Part shown: positions 21,825-35,800 of the stretch, piece by piece
How the letters are laid out: the number at the start of each line of letters is the position of its first letter
How positions within the stretch are numbered: position 1 is the stretch's first letter
Source: a virus
Virus record (IMG/VR): IMGVR_UViG_3300031787_000348
Span: 1 to 38,458 of that record
Strand: one strand, 5' to 3'
Length of the DNA stretch: 38,458 nucleotides
Translations under genes and position numbers: made by a program
The notes under the pieces: generated by a model
What the model was told of the DNA's origin: nothing
Seen by the model: the letters and a program-made list of their open reading frames with translations, nothing else
Databases searched by the model: none

Positions 21825-23159
21825 ATGATCCCCAAGAACATTCAGCTCACCCTTCGGATCCCGAAGGGCTCCCCGCTCACCCCCGAGGAAGTCGACGCCA
21901 ACTTCGTGGTCCTTCGCGACGCCATCACCGCGCTCGCCGAAGAGTTCAACACTGCCCGACTGATCATCGGGGAAGAGCCGCCAGTCGGTGAGCGGCCGGG
22001 CACGTTGTGGATCCCGGCGGACTTCCGGTCGATCTACGTCTGGAACTCGGGCAACAGCACCTGGTTCAACCTCACCCCCAAGGAGGTGCTCCACGTCACG
22101 GACACCGGGTCCGGCGTGAACTACATCATCCAGATGCCCGAGGGGATCACCACCTACGCGGACCTCGAGGGCCGGGTCATCGTCATGCGCTCGGTCCACG
22201 CCTCGACCGGGGCGTCGAAGCTACTGGTCAAGAACAGCGAGGGCACCCTCTTCGACAACACTGGGCTCAACCTGGTGAACCACTACCTTGGAACCCTCGA
22301 GCCGAACGACATCAAGGTTGGCCAGAAGGTCATGGTGGTGCTGAACAGCGGCCAGTTCCAGCTGCTCACGCCGACCCCGCCGATTCGACTTTCGGACTAC
22401 CGGAACGTGTTCACCTACCGTTCCAACCTGGCGGCGGTTCCGGTGTCCGGCGGAAAGCTCACGTTCACCCACGGACTCAAGTACAACGGCAACGACATCA
22501 TGCCGGCGTTGGTCCAGGTCTTCCTCCGGCGCAAGACGTCCTCGGGAGCCCACGAGTCCGGCATTGTCATCGATCCGGGCAAGGAGATCGACGGCTCGTG
22601 CCTCTGGACCGCCAGCCGCGGATCCGAGAACGAGATGTTCTGGCCCGTGGTGCGGACCCTGAAGAACGCCACCACGATCGAGGTCGGGTTCTACTACCCG
22701 AACGGCATCGCCATGCTGTGGGGCCACCTCGGCAAGAATGGCCAGGCGTCTGGCGCGGGAAGCATTGGCGACCCCTCGCTGTACGACGTGATCGTCTACG
22801 CGATCGCATTCAACCCGGACCAGTTCGGATCCAATCTCGACCAGATCCAGTCTGGCGGCGGATCGCAGGTGCCCGTTGTGACCGCTCACCCGGCCAACGT
22901 GACCGCCAACCAGAACCAGTCGATGACCTTCTCGGTGACGGCGAACTACGGCACCTCGGTGACCTGGTTCTACGACGGCCAGGAGGTTGGTGGCAGCCGC
23001 TTCTCGGAGACCGAGTCCGCGGGATCCACGTCCATTTCCTCCGTGCTGACGATCTCCGGCACCAGCATGTCCGACAGCGGTCGGCAGGTGTACGCCCGAG
23101 TCAACGGCCCCGGCGGCACCGTCACTTCCAATCCGGCAACCATCACCGTCAACCCGTGA
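21825..23159 (+). CDS. Virion surface protein with C-terminal Ig-like domain
   Basis: This 444-residue protein starts 2 bases after the glycosyltransferase stop. Residues 1-90 carry a common fibre or structural N-terminal region (PLTPEEVDANFVVLRDAI, then RPGTLWIPADFRSIYVWN). Residues about 195-330 are a beta-rich module with FTYRSNLAAVPVSGG, FTHGLKYNGND and a long final part. Residues about 350-444 are an Ig-like (I-set type) domain: VTANQNQSMTFSVTANYGTS, VTWFYDG, SVLTISGTSMSDSG and RVNGPGG. Ig-like domains on phage virions often bind carbohydrates weakly. It may be a fibre or a head-exposed protein. It overlaps the cupin gene by GTGA. Confidence 0.75.
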   Translation: MIPKNIQLTLRIPKGSPLTPEEVDANFVVLRDAITALAEEFNTARLIIGEEPPVGERPGTLWIPADFRSIYVWNSGNSTWFNLTPKEVLHVTDTGSGVNYIIQMPEGITTYADLEGRVIVMRSVHASTGASKLLVKNSEGTLFDNTGLNLVNHYLGTLEPNDIKVGQKVMVVLNSGQFQLLTPTPPIRLSDYRNVFTYRSNLAAVPVSGGKLTFTHGLKYNGNDIMPALVQVFLRRKTSSGAHESGIVIDPGKEIDGSCLWTASRGSENEMFWPVVRTLKNATTIEVGFYYPNGIAMLWGHLGKNGQASGAGSIGDPSLYDVIVYAIAFNPDQFGSNLDQIQSGGGSQVPVVTAHPANVTANQNQSMTFSVTANYGTSVTWFYDGQEVGGSRFSETESAGSTSISSVLTISGTSMSDSGRQVYARVNGPGGTVTSNPATITVNP

Positions 23160-26852: not shown

Positions 26853-29800
26853 ATGGCCAACTCCCTCGTTCAATGGTGGCGTGATCAGAATCCTGGTGAC
26901 GCCGGACTGCCCGACCAGGATGTCACGCTGAAGATTGCGGATCTCGCACCGGCCTACAAGGCGCAGGGTCGGGACATCTTCACCGAGTTCCCTGACTTCG
27001 CGGCCGACTACGACGCGATCACGCAGAGCATGCGGCGTGAGAATCGCCGCGAGTTCAGCACCCTCGGGAACGAGATCTCCCGCGGCGTGGAGCGCGGGTA
27101 CGAGGGGCTCAAGTCCACGATCACTGGAGCTGCGGCCCTGGCGGCTGACGCGATCCCAGGCAAGTTCGCGGATCCTGTTCGCGACGCGCTGATCAGCAAG
27201 TACCGGAAGCAGCAGGAGGCGGCGTCGGCTGACGACGTTGTCGCTGCCGTGCCGTCCTACAAGGATGTCGAGAGTGTCGGCGACGCGGCGAAGTACGTCG
27301 CAGGCTTGGCTGGCGAGGCTGTTCCGTCCATCGCTGAATCTGTCGCGACCGGCATTGCAGGCGCCGCGATCGGCACCGCGGCCGAGCCTGGTGGCGGCAC
27401 TGTCGTCGGCGGTGTTGCGGGTCTTGTCGCAAAGCAGGCCGCGAAGCGACTCATCGCGAAGAAGGTGGCCGGTTTCACTGCCAAGGAGATCGAGGAGGCC
27501 GCGCTCAAGGGTGTTGGCAGCGAGGCCCTGAAGACGCTCGTCAAGGCGGAAACCAAGGCGCTCATGTCTGGCGCAGGAGCCGCCATTGCTGGAGCCATCA
27601 ACAGCTACGGGCTGAGCGCGGGAGAGATCTATGGAGAGCTGGCGACCAATCCGAATGTCGATCCCGAGGACGCCTTCAAGGTCGCCCTGACCGCCGCGGT
27701 TCCGGCCGCTGCGCTCGACACCGTGCTCCCGACGTACGTGATCGGGAAGTCCGGCGTCCTGAGCCGCCTGGCCGGAGCCGTCGAGAACTTCGGCGAGACC
27801 GAGCGCCGCGGCTTCCTTGGATACGTCACCCGGCTGGCCGCCGAGATCCCGAAGACCGCAACCCTCGAGGGCGGCACCGAGGCGTTCCAGGAGATGGTCA
27901 ACATCGCCGCGGAGAAGTACGCCGAGACCAAGACCTTTGGGGAGTTCACCACCGGAGACTGGGAGCGCGTCGCAAACGCTGCTGCCGGTGGCGCTGCTGG
28001 CGGCTTTGTCGCCGCTCCGGCCGCGTCTGTCCGCATGGCGCCCGAGGCGACCAATCGGGCGTCCGCTGATGCCGGCGGGGAGAAGAAGGATGAGGCTGCA
28101 AAGACCGAGGAGAAGAAGCCGGAAGCGGAATCCACCCAGGCCGATCCCTCTCCCACCATTGGTCAGGAAATCCTTCAGGAGAACTTCGACGTCAACGTCG
28201 AGGGCATCGTCGACCTGGCTAAGCGCAAGCTGGCCGGCGAGGACGTGCTCGCCGAGGAGGAGGCGCTCAAGAAGTACCCTGACGCCGTCCGCCGCTACCA
28301 GGCCGAGGTCATCAAGCAGAGCGAGGCCAAGCTCGCCGCCGCCAGCAAGGCGGCCACCGATGCATCCGAAGCCGCTGCCCCCGCTGCTCCCACCGCGGAG
28401 CAGAACCCATCTTCCCCGCCGACTGAAGTTTCGCTACCGGCGGACGCCGGAGCTGCCCCTGGGGGTGGTGTCCCCGCGGCGGCTCCGGCTCAACCTTCGA
28501 CGCAGCCCAAGCCCGATATCGCGAATCCGATATCGGAACCGGATGCGTCCGCAGAGCCCGAGCCACCCAAGGTCGACGAGAAGGTCGCTGCCGCGGTCGA
28601 GGCCAGGACCAAGCGTGCCCAAGCCAAGATCGGAAAGATCCAGTCGGAGATGGCCGCGCTCGAGAAGGAGGCTTCCGATGCACGAGCCAAGGTGACGGAG
28701 GCTCAGGCCGCACTCGCCAGGTACGAGAAGGCAGACCAGAAGGGTCGCGCCGCGATGGCCGATGAGATGAAGAAGTATGGCGGCCCTGCCGGCATCGCAG
28801 ACTTCATCAAGAACGCATCCATTCTCCGGAAGGACGAAAAGACCGGAAAGCCCAAGCTCACGCTGAATGGCCGACGGGACGGGCGCGGCGGTGTTGCTGC
28901 CAAGCTCGCGTCAATGGCCAAGTTGATGGAGAAGGAGGAGCTTGGATTGAAGCGGGCCGCATCGAGCCAGGCCATCACTTCGGACGACGTGAATCTGGAT
29001 GTCGGATCCACTGATGCTGATGACCAGGAGGAAGGTGTCGATAGTGGCAAGCCGACCGATCCGCCAGGCTACTACGACATCGCTGACGAGTCCGAGTTTG
29101 GGCAGGACCTCAAGGCCTTGGTTGAGCAGGTCAAGTCCAAGGGCGCTGGTAGCGCCGCTGCCGTAGTCAGGCTCGGTGGAATGCTCACCTCCCGCGCCCA
29201 CGACAAGCGCAGCGGAAGCGCGACCAGCTACCGCGTCACGGCGTGGGTCGGGCCTGACGGCAAGGTCACCCTCTCTACGTCCCACCGTCGCTCCGGTGGC
29301 GACTTTATCACCCCCAATCAGGTGTACCGCTTCGCAGTGAAGGACGGTCCCGCCACGATCAAGGGTGCCTCGATGGGCATCGTTGAAATGATCGACGCCG
29401 GCTACACGCCGCACGCCTCAATGCTGCTGTCCTCGGACCGGGACCATGGCGCCCAGTTCTTCGGTAGCGTCGAGGAGTTCGATGCCAAGTTCGGATCCCT
29501 CAAGCAGGCGCGAGACGCTGTGTCCACCGTTGAGAATGAAACGGCCACTTCGGATGGCGGATCGGTCATCGTCGACACCAACCAGAAGGACGCATCGGTT
29601 GAGTTGGATGATGCCGAGTTTGCCTTGGCCAATCAGCTCCTGCAGGCCGCCGTGTCTGACGCGCTGCAGAGTGGTATTCCCGCCGTCGTCGAGGGCCGGT
29701 TTAATCCAGCGTTTTTCAAGGACACATTGGCTGGCCGAATGATCTCGCGGCACCAGCAGATCGAGAACGCCATCAAGGAAGAGAAGCCGATCTCCGCCAA

Positions 29801-32800
29801 TATCGGGGCCGAGTTTATTGACGACCTTGTTAAACTGGCTGAAGCGGCGGACATTGAGCTTGGTGGCGGTGATGTAACTGCCATCGTTAAGACGATGCCG
29901 GATGCCATCGGTCAGCTTGCCGATCGGTTCCAGAGCGGCCTACGCCTGGCCAAGCAGAAGCAGGAGAAATCGAAGAATGAAAACACTGAAGGTGCCCCAG
30001 CAGTTGGCGGCAAATCTGACGCCGGATCAGCAGCGTCGTCTGCTGGAAATGGTGGCGACGTCGGCGAAGGCGATCGCAGCATCGCGCAAGAAACAGGTCC
30101 GGGGCCAGCGCAGGCAGCCGCGCCCGCAGCAGGTGGTGCAGGACAAGCCGAAGGGGCCTCCCCCGGAGGTGATGTAACCTCCGCGCAGGTTCAGGCGGAT
30201 CGCGACCTGAAGAAGGTCTCGGACTCGACTGTCGAGGCGTTTGAGGAGCGTGCCGCCGAGCTGCTCGACGACGGCGTCATCACCGACGACGAGCACGACG
30301 AGGCCCTCGACAGGGTGTACGACCTGATCAAGGGGGACCCGAAGGACTACCAGGGCATCATCGACCTGGTGAAGGAGCTCAACGAGGAGTTCCGCGAACT
30401 CGAGGCCGAGAGGAAGTCGAACACTCGCTCCCGCATGGCGCAGGAGGATGTCGACGCTGTCGACACCGTGTCGCTGGCGGACGGTCGTTTGATCGCGCCC
30501 GAGCTGTCGCCCACCTCGATCCAGGCGATCATCCACAACATCATGCGGCTGATGCGGCCGAAGCCGCAGAACCTGTCCGCGCCTCTTTCGGCTGCCGACC
30601 TTCGCACCAAGTACCCCGACCTCAGGTCCGCGCTGCGCCGGATCGCCATTGCATCCGCGTCCGACGGCACCCCTGCCGGCGCCATCCGCGCTGCAGCCGC
30701 GAAGGCCATGATGGATCAGGGCAACTCGGCGGGAGTGACCATGATCATCGGGGACAACCCGGATGTGCCCGGTCAGCTCGGGAAGTACGACCTGCGCTCG
30801 GATACGATCACCGTGTTCGCCGCAGGGCACACCAACGAGGACGATCTCCAGTCCACCATCCTCGAGGAGGCGCTTCACGCCTTCACCGCCAAGGCCCGTG
30901 TCGCCTTCTCGAAGGCGCCGGAGTCGCTGAACGAGTCCACGCGGGACGCCATCTCCGGCATCGAGTCGATGATGAAGCTGGCCCGCGACAACGGCATGAC
31001 CTGGCAGCAGAGCGACGGGTCGCCCGAGGTTGCGTTCGACGAGTTCGTGGCTGCGGTGATCCGCGACCGCGGGTTCCAGGACCGCCTGCAGACCATCGGC
31101 GTGAGCCGGGACTTCGGCGTGGCGAAGGCGACCAACCTCTTCGAGGCGATCGTCCAGTACATCGGCAGGATCGTGGCCAGCCTGGTGGAGCGTTTCTCCG
31201 AGCTGTTCGGCATCAACGGACCGACCAAGCGCACCGCGCTGGATGCCAGTGTCTCGATGGTGAAGCAGCTCATTGAGGCCCATCAGCGGATCGCGCCGTC
31301 GGGTGGCCTGGTTGAAGGCGAGCGGGCACGCAAGGTCGACGGCACCGTCGGCACTGGCGGCGAGATCACCGTGGACTCCAGCAGCTTTGCGGCCGACGCG
31401 ACCGCCGAGGCGAAGCGACTCATGGCGCTGCAGAACCAGATCGCCGACGCGATGATCGACATGATCAACAGCTGGAACTCCAAGGGGAACAACAGGTCCT
31501 CCGCCGGGGTTCAGCTGCTGAACGATGATCAGGCCATCCGGCGGATGATCCTCGACGTGGTGAGCTCGACCTCGCCCCTTCCATCCGAGGCCAAGATCGC
31601 CATCAACACGGCGCTGACCGACCAGGGTGCGGCGCCTGTCCTGGAAACGATCGGCATTGGGGATCTCGAGTCCCTTTCGGATGCGCCGAAGGTGGCGAAG
31701 CAGGCCCTCAACGCCCTGTACTCCATCCGGCAGAAGCTGGGCGCCGAACTGGAGATCGCACGCGACCTCTTTGGAAAGCGGAACATCCTGTCCGCGATCG
31801 CGAGCGCCAGCTTCGAGCTGACCGAACTCACGAAGAAGTACGAGGACATGACCTTCATCGGCAAGGAGCTGGTGAAGGAGGTGCGCCGGTCTATCAACGA
31901 GAGCGAGGACAGGGGAGCTGGATCCATCGCCAAGGCCATGGGCCTGAGTCAGGGCAGGAAGGCATCGCTGGCCGCCGCCGAGACCTGGGTCCGCGGCAAC
32001 CTGCCGCAGTTCACCGACGCCGTCACCGCGCTGGCCGAGCTCGGTCTGGACCCGAAGCTCACCCCGCCGGCCGACATCCTGCGCGACGTCATCGCGGCCA
32101 CCCCGGGCAAGCCTGCCCTGGCGCCACTGAACGACGTGGGTCGCCTGTCCATGGCGCTGCAGTTCGCCCGCCGTCGTCCGATGGTGATGCAGCTTCTGGC
32201 CACCCGCGGCAAGGGTGAGGCTGGCGCCTTGCGCTCGATCATCAACCAGGCCATGAGCGACCGGCCTGACGCCATCGCCCTGGCGAAGCGCGACCTCTCC
32301 AAGCTGACCAAGGTTGGCCACATCGCCGGACGCATCATCGACGAGATCGAGACCAAGCGCCGCCAGCACCGCGCCATGCTCGACCGGGCCAAGGTGATGG
32401 CTGAGCGGGAGCAGTTCATCATCGACACCAATCAGGCGCTGAACCGCCGGATCGGAAAGCTCGAGCAGCTGCTGCAGCTGGAGTCGACCGGCATCAACGG
32501 CGGGGAATGGACCGCGCATGCCGGCGCCGTGTACCGGGTTCCGACCAGCCCGAACCAGTCGGCAGGAGAGCTGTTCTCCGCGGCCCAGGGATCTCCGGAG
32601 TACCGGGTCCTGAGCCTCGGGTTCGACTTCGACGGGGCCAAGGTGCGCCAGGACATGGCCGCCATGAAGGCCTGGCTCGACGCCAACCCCGACCTGCAGG
32701 GGACGGCGAACTACACCATGATGGTCCGGCAGGTCGACGCGCTGGCCAGGGTGTACTCCCGGGAGCTGGATGCGAACGTGAAGCGTGGACCTTCGGGCCT

Positions 32801-35800
32801 GGTCATCCGGGTGCTTGGGTCCACGGCAGACCGACTGGACCAGATCGGGCTTCGTGGCGCCAAGGAGGCGGCCCGCATGACCCGCCAGTTCGTGGCTGGG
32901 TTCGAGCAGTCCCTTCGCTCGGTCGACGCCAAGCGGTTCCATGAGTTCGACGCGCTGATGCGCCAGGGTGTCCAGATCACCAAGCTGCACCCCCGCGAGT
33001 TCAAGCGGCTCTACTACAACCGAGCCCTGGGCTACCTCGAGTCCCGGCAGGACCTGCTGAACCCCGGGATCCCGACGGAGCAGCAGACCGCCAACCTCAT
33101 CGACGAGGCCGTCAAGTTCCTGAACAGCCAGGATCAGATGTCGAGCCAGCTCGAGGAGGTCGTCCGCCTTCTGCTCGGCACCACGGCCGACAACGGCCAG
33201 ATCATCACCAGAGAGAACCGACGCAACTTCGGTCTCAAGGTCCGCGACGTGATGAAGGGTGGCCGGGTGTACCTGCGCGAGATCATTGGCAGCCCGCTGT
33301 CGACCGCGGCCCGCGGCATCCACGAGGACGTCCGTGCCTGGGTGGGTCGTGCGAAGGCTGCGTGGTCCACGCCGTACGACGTTGCCGGATCCAAGGAGAC
33401 CAAGCTCCGCGGCGAGCCGATCTCGCTGCTGTACACCACCGACCGGGCTGCGCTGGAGGCGATCATCAAGACCAGGTTCACGGACGAGGTTGTCACCCGG
33501 TTCCTGAAGCCTCTGGCCTACAAGACCGGCATGACCAACTTTGCAGGACCCGAGATCCTCGGGGTGTCCGACATGGCCTCCCGCAAGAACCTGATCGAGG
33601 CCTACAGCCGGTCGAGTGGCGACGTGCTGCGCTTCATCGAGGAGCTGCACGCCCTCGAGGGTGGATCTCCGGCCGACCTGCCCACTTTCGTCGGGTCGAC
33701 GCTGGCGACGCTCCAGAGCTACATGAGCACGCTGGAGTCGATCACCGACGCCGCCGGGCAGCCGCTCGACGACGACGCCGACCCAGGCCTGAACTTCCTC
33801 AACGCACGCCAGGGCGAGGACTTCCCCTGGGAGTGGCTCGACTACAAGGAGTATGGATTCCAGCAGCGGACCCGGTATCTGCGCGTGATGGCGCAGCAGG
33901 CCGCCTTCGGTGACGGGTCGTCCTCTTTCAGCGCGGCCCTGGCTGAAGCCAAGAAGCAGCTCGAGTCCCTGCGCGAGGAGTACGAGCGGGCCAACGCGAT
34001 GCTGACGGCCGGCAACAAGGCGGGCGCCGAGGCCCTGATGAACAAGGACGGCCTCCGCACGGCGCGGAGCAATGCCGCAGCAAACCTGGTCGAGCTCCAG
34101 CGGGTGGCAAGCCGCCACGCCGACATGATGCGGACGCTGAATGGCGGACCCTCTGGGCTCCGTGCGTTCTCGGAGCTGCTGGGCGTGATCTCCGGCATGA
34201 CCGTGCAGGGCTTCGCGACCGCGGCCACCGACTCGGTGACGCTGATCGAGGCGCCGTTCCGCAAGTTCGGCTTCACCAAGGAGGCCCTGCAGTTCATCAC
34301 CGGCACCTGGCGTGCGCTGGGCACCGAGGTCTGGGGCACCTTTGCCCAGGCGTTCGGCATGGACATGCACACCGACGCGGCAACCGAGGCGGAGACCCGG
34401 CTGCTGAACCGGATGGGCTTGGCCGATCTGGATAGCCTCTCCAATCAGCGTGGGTTCAAGGCGCTGCATGAGCGGTACATCGAGGAGCTCAGTGACGAGC
34501 TGTCGTTCTCCGCCATCGCCACGCGGTATCAGAACGAGCGGATCCGCATGGCCACCCAGATGGCGGGCGCGGCGGTGAGCCGGGTCGCCAAGGGTGCCAA
34601 GGTCTTCCTGGAAGCGGGCATCGGAGTGGCTGATGAAGCCGAGACCGGATTCGCCACGCTGAAGCTGCTGAATCCGTTCAGCCAGGGATCCATCTGGATG
34701 CACCGCGCCGCGGCCCGCCAGTGGCTCCGCACGGTGAACAACGCGATCCTCAAGGCGGAGGCGTACTTCAGGGCGCACCCGCAGCACGAGGCCGATCCCA
34801 ACTTCCGGTTCACGGCCAAGGAGCTGGGGTACACCGGCAAGACGCTGACCGGCATGAAGCTGGACAACCGGGCCTGGGAGTTCCTGGCGGAGAAGCTGGC
34901 CCAGTCCGGCATCTCCCTCGAGGAGGCCGCCCGGCGGAAGATGCGCGGCGCGGACCCGCTGACCTTCAGTCAGACCCAGTCCGCGCTCTCGCTGGCGCAG
35001 ACCGAGATCCTGCTGAACAGCAGCCCGACCACCCGGCCGGCCTGGGCCATGACCCCGGGCGGCAAGCTGATCACCCCGCTGATCGGCTGGTCCCTCTACA
35101 AGACGGCCGACCTGGTGAAGACGGCGGGCGATCCCCAGTACCGGCGCGACGGCAAATCGTTCGTTGCGTTCATGGAGGCGATGATGTTCGGAGTGCTGCC
35201 GGTGGCGCTGGTGTACGCCGTGCTGCGCGACGAGTACGAGGAGGATGTCCTCAAGAAGAAGCAGAACGTCATGCCGCTGCGGGCTGACGCGACGCTGCCC
35301 GCGGCCGTGCTCGATGCGACGTCCAGGATGGGCGTGTTCGGCGTGCTGGGTGAGATCCCCAACACGATCGTCAACCAGGCCACCGCCCGGGAGGTCTCGA
35401 TCGACTCCCGCGTGTTCGCCGTGAGCTCGCTCATCAGCCTGATGAAGGTGGCCACCACGGCATACAACCAGGACTTCACGATGACCTACGCGACCACGAT
35501 GCGGCCGTTCCTGCAGGCGGTTGGTGGCAGTGGCTACCTACAGAACTTCGACGCGCTCAACGGTCTCGCCGGGCTGGACAACATCGAGTCGCGCATGGCC
35601 CGACGCATCAACGTCGGCAACCACCTGCGCGTGGCTGGCCGGATGAACGGACTCGAGGTGCGGACCTCGAGGGGGTCGACGGTGACCGCCAACCCGGTCC
35701 GCCCGCACGTCGTGAACATGGCGCTGGCAGCGTACGCGAACGACGCCTCCGGGTTCCGTGACTCGTACGAGAAGGCGCTGCAGGCGGCCATCAAGGAATA

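Follow-up and report, generated by a model that had tools for sequence, protein, structure and literature searches.

Small phage genes that lie inside a larger gene in another reading frame and have their own start are exemplified by the lambda-type Rz/Rz1 pair. Rz1 is a secreted lipoprotein of the lysis cassette that carries a signal peptide and a lipobox cysteine. A second arrangement of this kind is ShiLan, a hidden out-of-frame HNH endonuclease inserted in phage DNA methylases (PMC11855218). ShiLan is a homing endonuclease of 195 aa with a scattered distribution, a GTG start, and no detectable RBS, and the product of its host frame is predicted as a loop (PMC11855218). Rz1 within Rz and ShiLan are the closest architectures to the gene described here, which has the defining features of neither a spanin nor a nuclease. 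It lies in the IMG/VR virus record IMGVR_UViG_3300031787_000348, which was analyzed over its whole length of 38,458 bases (hereafter referred to as the window). Like Rz1, the gene is contained in a longer phage gene and read in a different frame; however, its protein contains neither a cysteine nor a signal, and the larger gene is a giant, probable core/ejection gene. An Rz1-type o-spanin is disfavored, as a cysteine is absent from all four embedded proteins of this family. As with ShiLan, the host gene reads through without a stop and the real gene occupies another frame, but the family comprises non-nuclease proteins of 58–67 aa with an ATG and a Shine-Dalgarno (SD) sequence, located at one site in all four linker-bearing giant genes. 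A hidden homing endonuclease is likewise disfavored, since no Pfam or PHROG nuclease match was obtained. The host gene product resembles T7-like internal core proteins and the N4 vRNAP gp50 (PMC12633501) in being a giant multidomain protein with flexible linkers and a zincin-like domain whose fold matches that of internal core and polyvalent proteins. The open-access papers that we searched did not mention hidden genes in the linkers of such giant core/ejection proteins.

The initial annotation had proposed that an embedded gene, possibly encoding a new small protein, is located in +1 phase within the giant gene, or alternatively that the segment was once the main frame, and had counted GC at the third positions of 54/66 codons in the +1 frame and of 29/66 in the giant frame. 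Our recount gave identical numbers. GC occurs at 47, 29, and 54 of 66 embedded codon positions 1, 2, and 3, respectively (29977-30177), and the third positions of the giant frame amount to 29/66 because they are the same bases as the second positions of the embedded frame. GC3 is high in the giant gene (0.844 overall), as stated before for the neighboring parts, and a GC3 profile along the whole gene placed its lowest value, 0.43, on the embedded ORF stretch. The AGGAG at a 10-base spacing from the ATG was present, and what had been described as a low-complexity Gly/Ala/Ser linker is a poorly conserved Gly/Ala/Ser/Pro sequence in the giant frame (Table 1). This linker character results largely from a one-frame shift in the reading of a gene that is GC-rich and codon-biased, because giant positions 1 and 2 are the GC-rich embedded positions 3 and 1. 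Composition alone is weak evidence and was rejected as proof because other Gly/Ala/Pro linkers of relatives show a drop in GC3 as well; the objection that other linkers might behave in the same way was thus borne out in part, as some of them do. The mechanical +1 ORF begins earlier, at 29902 (91 aa), and conservation was seen only from 29977 on. An antisense open frame of 1586 aa (window 30027-34787, minus strand) runs along the giant gene and is probably a by-product of the high GC3. Neither an Rfam family nor a tRNA was detected in the window.

Table 1. Features of the giant gene, the embedded ORF, and hidden ORFs of a second family. Positions are those of the window unless preceded by an L-number; L-numbers (L002, L009, L021, L040, L047-L049, L051) denote sequence pieces of relatives and other phages.
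Feature	Position	Strand	Remarks
Giant gene, 3073 aa	26853..36074	+	Probably podovirus-type internal core/ejection or polyvalent protein
Conserved N-terminal region of giant protein	26853..28310	+	~59-62% identical to G001
AGGAG, Shine-Dalgarno-like	29962..29966	+	10 bases before ATG at 29977
Giant-frame Gly/Ala/Ser/Pro linker, codons 1042-1109	29976..30179	+	Overlaps embedded ORF
Embedded ORF, 66 aa	29977..30177	+	MKTLKVPQQLAANLTPDQQRRLLEMVATSAKAIAASRKKQVRGQRRQPRPQQVVQDKPKGPPPEVM followed by stop; ATG...TAA; +1 phase to giant gene
Zincin-like domain	30558..31292	+	EExxH; first conserved domain after linker
Second-family hidden ORF, G009	L040:3041-3184	+	+1 frame, another linker
Second-family hidden ORF, G005	L021:9474-9647	-	+1 frame, another linker
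Elemovirus hidden ORF	L049:3583-3711 (MT497078.1); also L051 (MT497067.1)		MPFKSKAQMKACYSQDNPKWDCKKWSKETPSKKSLPNKVKKK; unannotated there

Three relatives of the window were obtained from IMG/VR, namely G001 (IMGVR_UViG_3300032288_002265, 73,327 bases) and, reached via the capsid protein, G005 (IMGVR_UViG_3300045995_000345) and G009 (IMGVR_UViG_3300009167_000007). Together with the window, they provided the four giant genes with this linker that were found, all of them metagenomic, in IMG/VR searches that were patterned and partial. In the conserved C-terminal parts, the giant proteins of G001, G005, and G009 are ~60%, 37%, and 35% identical, respectively, to that of the window. Both ends of the giant protein are conserved; the middle module (window 28520-29900) is highly variable, being 27% identical to that of G001 and matching G005 weakly at most and G009 not at all by BLAST. 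The 3' border of this module is where the hidden gene is located. Sequence searches against PHROG, Pfam, and PDB returned no match for the giant protein. Its zincin-like domain, modelled over window 30558-31412 with a pLDDT of 80.5, gave Foldseek matches to the internal core protein of Pseudomonas phage Ab05 (E=4.4e-5), to further proteins of podoviruses, and to large polyvalent proteins, with TM values of ~0.4-0.5, and a Foldseek search of the PDB yielded no significant match for this domain. Based on the predicted domain fold and the late-gene position, the giant gene product is most likely an internal core/ejection protein. The zincin motif is EExxH in the window and G001 and HExxH in G005 and G009, and the peptidase may therefore be inactive in the sublineage of the window and G001. 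Another late gene product of the window (21825-23159) matches a tail-protein PHROG weakly and carries an Ig-like domain close to the C-terminal end.

A homologous ORF in the same +1 phase occurs at the corresponding position, in the linker that precedes the conserved C-terminal region, in the giant genes of G001 (67 aa), G005 (64 aa), and G009 (58 aa). The embedded protein of the window is 48-50% identical to that of G001 (E=4e-16) and 34-38% identical to that of G005 (E=4e-5). The G005 copy was missed by the profile search and found by direct tblastn; the G009 copy is a profile match (E=1.5e-5) and was recognised by the profile, its similarity to G005, and its position and synteny, not directly by similarity to the window protein. 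Each of the four embedded ORFs has its own ATG, an SD match of 4-5 bases at a spacing of 7-10, and a stop. The N-termini read MKT, MRT, or MKS, and thus M-K/R-T/S is kept in all four proteins, as is an R-P-x-Q-V motif after the basic stretch. With an embedded frame that is open and homologous in four of four cases, the proposal of an embedded small-protein gene is supported. The distant giant gene of L047/L048 (~25% identical) is devoid of both the linker and a detectable copy, and no hidden ORF stood out in it. Among these few sequences, the insertion-site pattern is a copy in each of the four linker-bearing giant genes and absence of copy and linker together from L047/L048. Patterned searches with the giant middle part and with the embedded alignment returned nothing beyond G001, and the cultured-phage collection contained no relative of the embedded, stand-alone (see below), or giant protein. 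No relatives were obtained from plasmids, searched with the C-terminal part of the G005 giant protein only, or from genome contigs, searched with the capsid protein and the C-terminal part of the giant protein. The embedded family represents a conserved small protein that has no confident Pfam or PHROGs match and is unmatched among 50,697 phage records.

We then compared both frames codon by codon in the relatives. In the forward test, the giant-frame synonymous codons were resampled 2000 times and the embedded frame was rescored. The embedded-frame score for the window and G001 was 156 compared to a null of 49.9±15.1 with a maximum of 103.5, and none of the 2000 resamples reached the real value. 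For the other pairs, the real embedded score was reached by few resamples (window-G005, 4/2000; G005-G009, 2/2000; G001-G005, 19/2000; G001-G009, 35/2000), with the exception of window-G009, where 530/2000 resamples did so and the pair was not significant. In the converse test, in which the embedded codons were resampled, the similarity of the giant frame was ordinary, with 23%, 11%, 10%, and 7% of the resamples reaching the real value, and about 80% of the embedded-synonymous resamples carried a stop in the giant frame. The giant frame is therefore kept open but not otherwise conserved. A comparison of substitutions between the window and G001 gave a corresponding picture: in the flanks, giant third positions change most (0.45-0.49), whereas in the overlap they are the least changed (23/66), and the most changed are the giant first positions (35/66), equivalent to the embedded third positions. 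The comparison proposed at the outset thus favors the embedded frame. The initial annotation had considered that the embedded frame might be broken and the giant frame conserved in relatives; the reverse was seen in all four linker-bearing giant genes. The stretch 29977-30177 is very probably a genuine overlapping gene under selection, and the resampling shows, at the level of codons, that its conserved product is the embedded protein, with the giant frame simply held open as a flexible linker. The locus provides a clear natural example of a stretch over which the apparent gene encodes no more than a linker, whereas the other frame encodes the conserved protein.

In addition to its embedded copy, G001 contains a stand-alone homologue, a 44-aa gene with its own start on the opposite strand in the leftward region (L002 23437-23571). 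This gene overlaps its neighbors in an operon-like manner, its neighborhood comprises integrase and replication-type genes, and its product has no basic tail. The window embedded protein matched it with 49% over 37 residues (E=2e-5). When the giant frame was held fixed and its synonymous codons were resampled, this match, with a score of 76, was far outside the null of 24.7±4.6 (maximum 53; 0/3000), and none of 3000 resamples reached the real score of the G001 embedded copy either. Taken alone, G005 (113/3000) and G009 (2310/3000) showed no clear link to the stand-alone gene, that of G009 being not significant.

By scoring all alternative-frame ORFs in the four giant genes, we found a second hidden family, of the MPFxS.AQ.R type, in G009 and G005 (Table 1). 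The two ORFs have AGGAG and AAGGA sites; across both families, all six hidden starts are preceded by 4 or more bases matching the SD sequence, compared to 13-26% of out-of-frame ATGs. The second family is not homologous to the 66-aa embedded family, and no member was matched in the window. Weak matches were obtained to phrog_1375 and phrog_16759 (E 0.0006 and 0.0012), small proteins of the MPFKS.AQ.R family. The family also matches a stand-alone gene of phage 023Pt_psg01 (URG13095.1) located after the head-tail connector gene, and for the G009 ORF this similarity was reached by 0/3000 giant-frame synonymous resamples. In Gordonia phage MScarn, a member stands alone between the terminase subunits. 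A further match (E=0.08, 51% over 39 aa) was found in cultured Flavobacterium Elemovirus, where it sits out of frame by +1 in a giant CDS of ~3,670 codons annotated as a structural protein; 22/3000 resamples reached its similarity to the stand-alone gene. As judged from these sequences, the window locus is probably not the only one at which a giant structural-type phage protein harbors a hidden +1 gene. Since both hidden families have stand-alone members, a pre-existing small gene may have been swallowed by, or inserted into, the giant-gene linker. It is plausible, as we infer, that the small gene came first and was later overrun by the giant frame. The chances are about even that the disordered linkers of giant core/ejection proteins in podoviruses repeatedly shelter small genes in the +1 frame, with two unrelated families using this arrangement and one of them doing so in unrelated phages, the window lineage and the cultured Flavobacterium Elemovirus. 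On this reading, standard annotation would systematically overlook a layer of genes that arose by gene swallowing. The Elemovirus phages are cultured phages with a related arrangement and are open to proteomics.

The embedded ORF might be a chance open frame, with a Gly/Ala/Pro linker in a GC-rich gene being stop-free in +1 and its conservation being forced by the giant frame. Other linkers are in fact open in +1 with lowered GC3, and as 95% of usage-matched synonymous resamples of the window segment stay open in +1, the openness of the frame says little. However, the embedded similarity between the window and G001 lies far beyond the level forced by the giant frame, the conservation of the giant frame does not exceed the level imposed by the embedded frame, and the stand-alone homologue in another region of G001 cannot derive from the giant frame; we consider chance highly improbable. 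A programmed +1 (or -2) frameshift would yield a truncated N-terminal half of the giant protein with a basic tail and no free protein. Such an event would fit the common +1 phase in the four giant genes and the fact that in the window, G005, and G009 the open +1 frame extends for some distance ahead of the ATG, but conservation begins at the ATG with the shared N-terminal residues, each ATG is preceded by an SD-like match, the upstream +1 frame is dissimilar between relatives and has stops in G001, and the stand-alone homologue of G001 has a start codon of its own. A frameshift is, accordingly, an improbable explanation.

The geometry of an open host frame with the real gene out of frame is shared with ShiLan, and linkers in relatives and in unrelated phages house a second hidden family, both of which are consistent with a selfish or mobile gene that resides in a tolerant linker and does not serve the phage. 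In contrast to this expectation, the gene occupies the same site in the four linker-bearing giant genes rather than being scattered, has no match to HNH, GIY-YIG, or other nucleases, and encodes only 58-67 aa with a single predicted helix, and we regard a selfish gene as unlikely. Taken as a whole, the locus is probably best explained as a nested +1 small-protein gene in the disordered linker of a giant late gene.

AlphaFold predicted a helix at residues 16-44 of the 66-aa protein and a low-confidence, unstructured basic tail (mean pLDDT 71). The predicted product is a small basic protein with a conserved helix and a disordered tail rich in Lys, Arg, and Pro. Ribosomes would start internally at the AGGAG/ATG at 29977 on the giant mRNA and produce a free 66-aa protein, which would therefore be made together with the giant protein; we consider such internal initiation likely. 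With low confidence, we tentatively propose a small accessory in virion assembly, packaging, or ejection, a role favored because the gene is encoded within a late structural-type gene. A structural role is not favored by the stand-alone homologue, as this lies among integrase and replication-type genes, and for the same reason a small regulatory or host-takeover protein unrelated to the virion is nearly as plausible, if likewise doubtful. Two members also match a PHROG transcriptional repressor family (E=0.0054 and 0.033), but this match is weak and partial, the location of the embedded copy in a late structural gene would result in late expression, and the missing basic tail of the stand-alone copy speaks against a regulatory role as well. 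As a separate observation, G001 encodes an integrase (L009:2040-3062, minus strand), and this uncultured lineage may thus be temperate.
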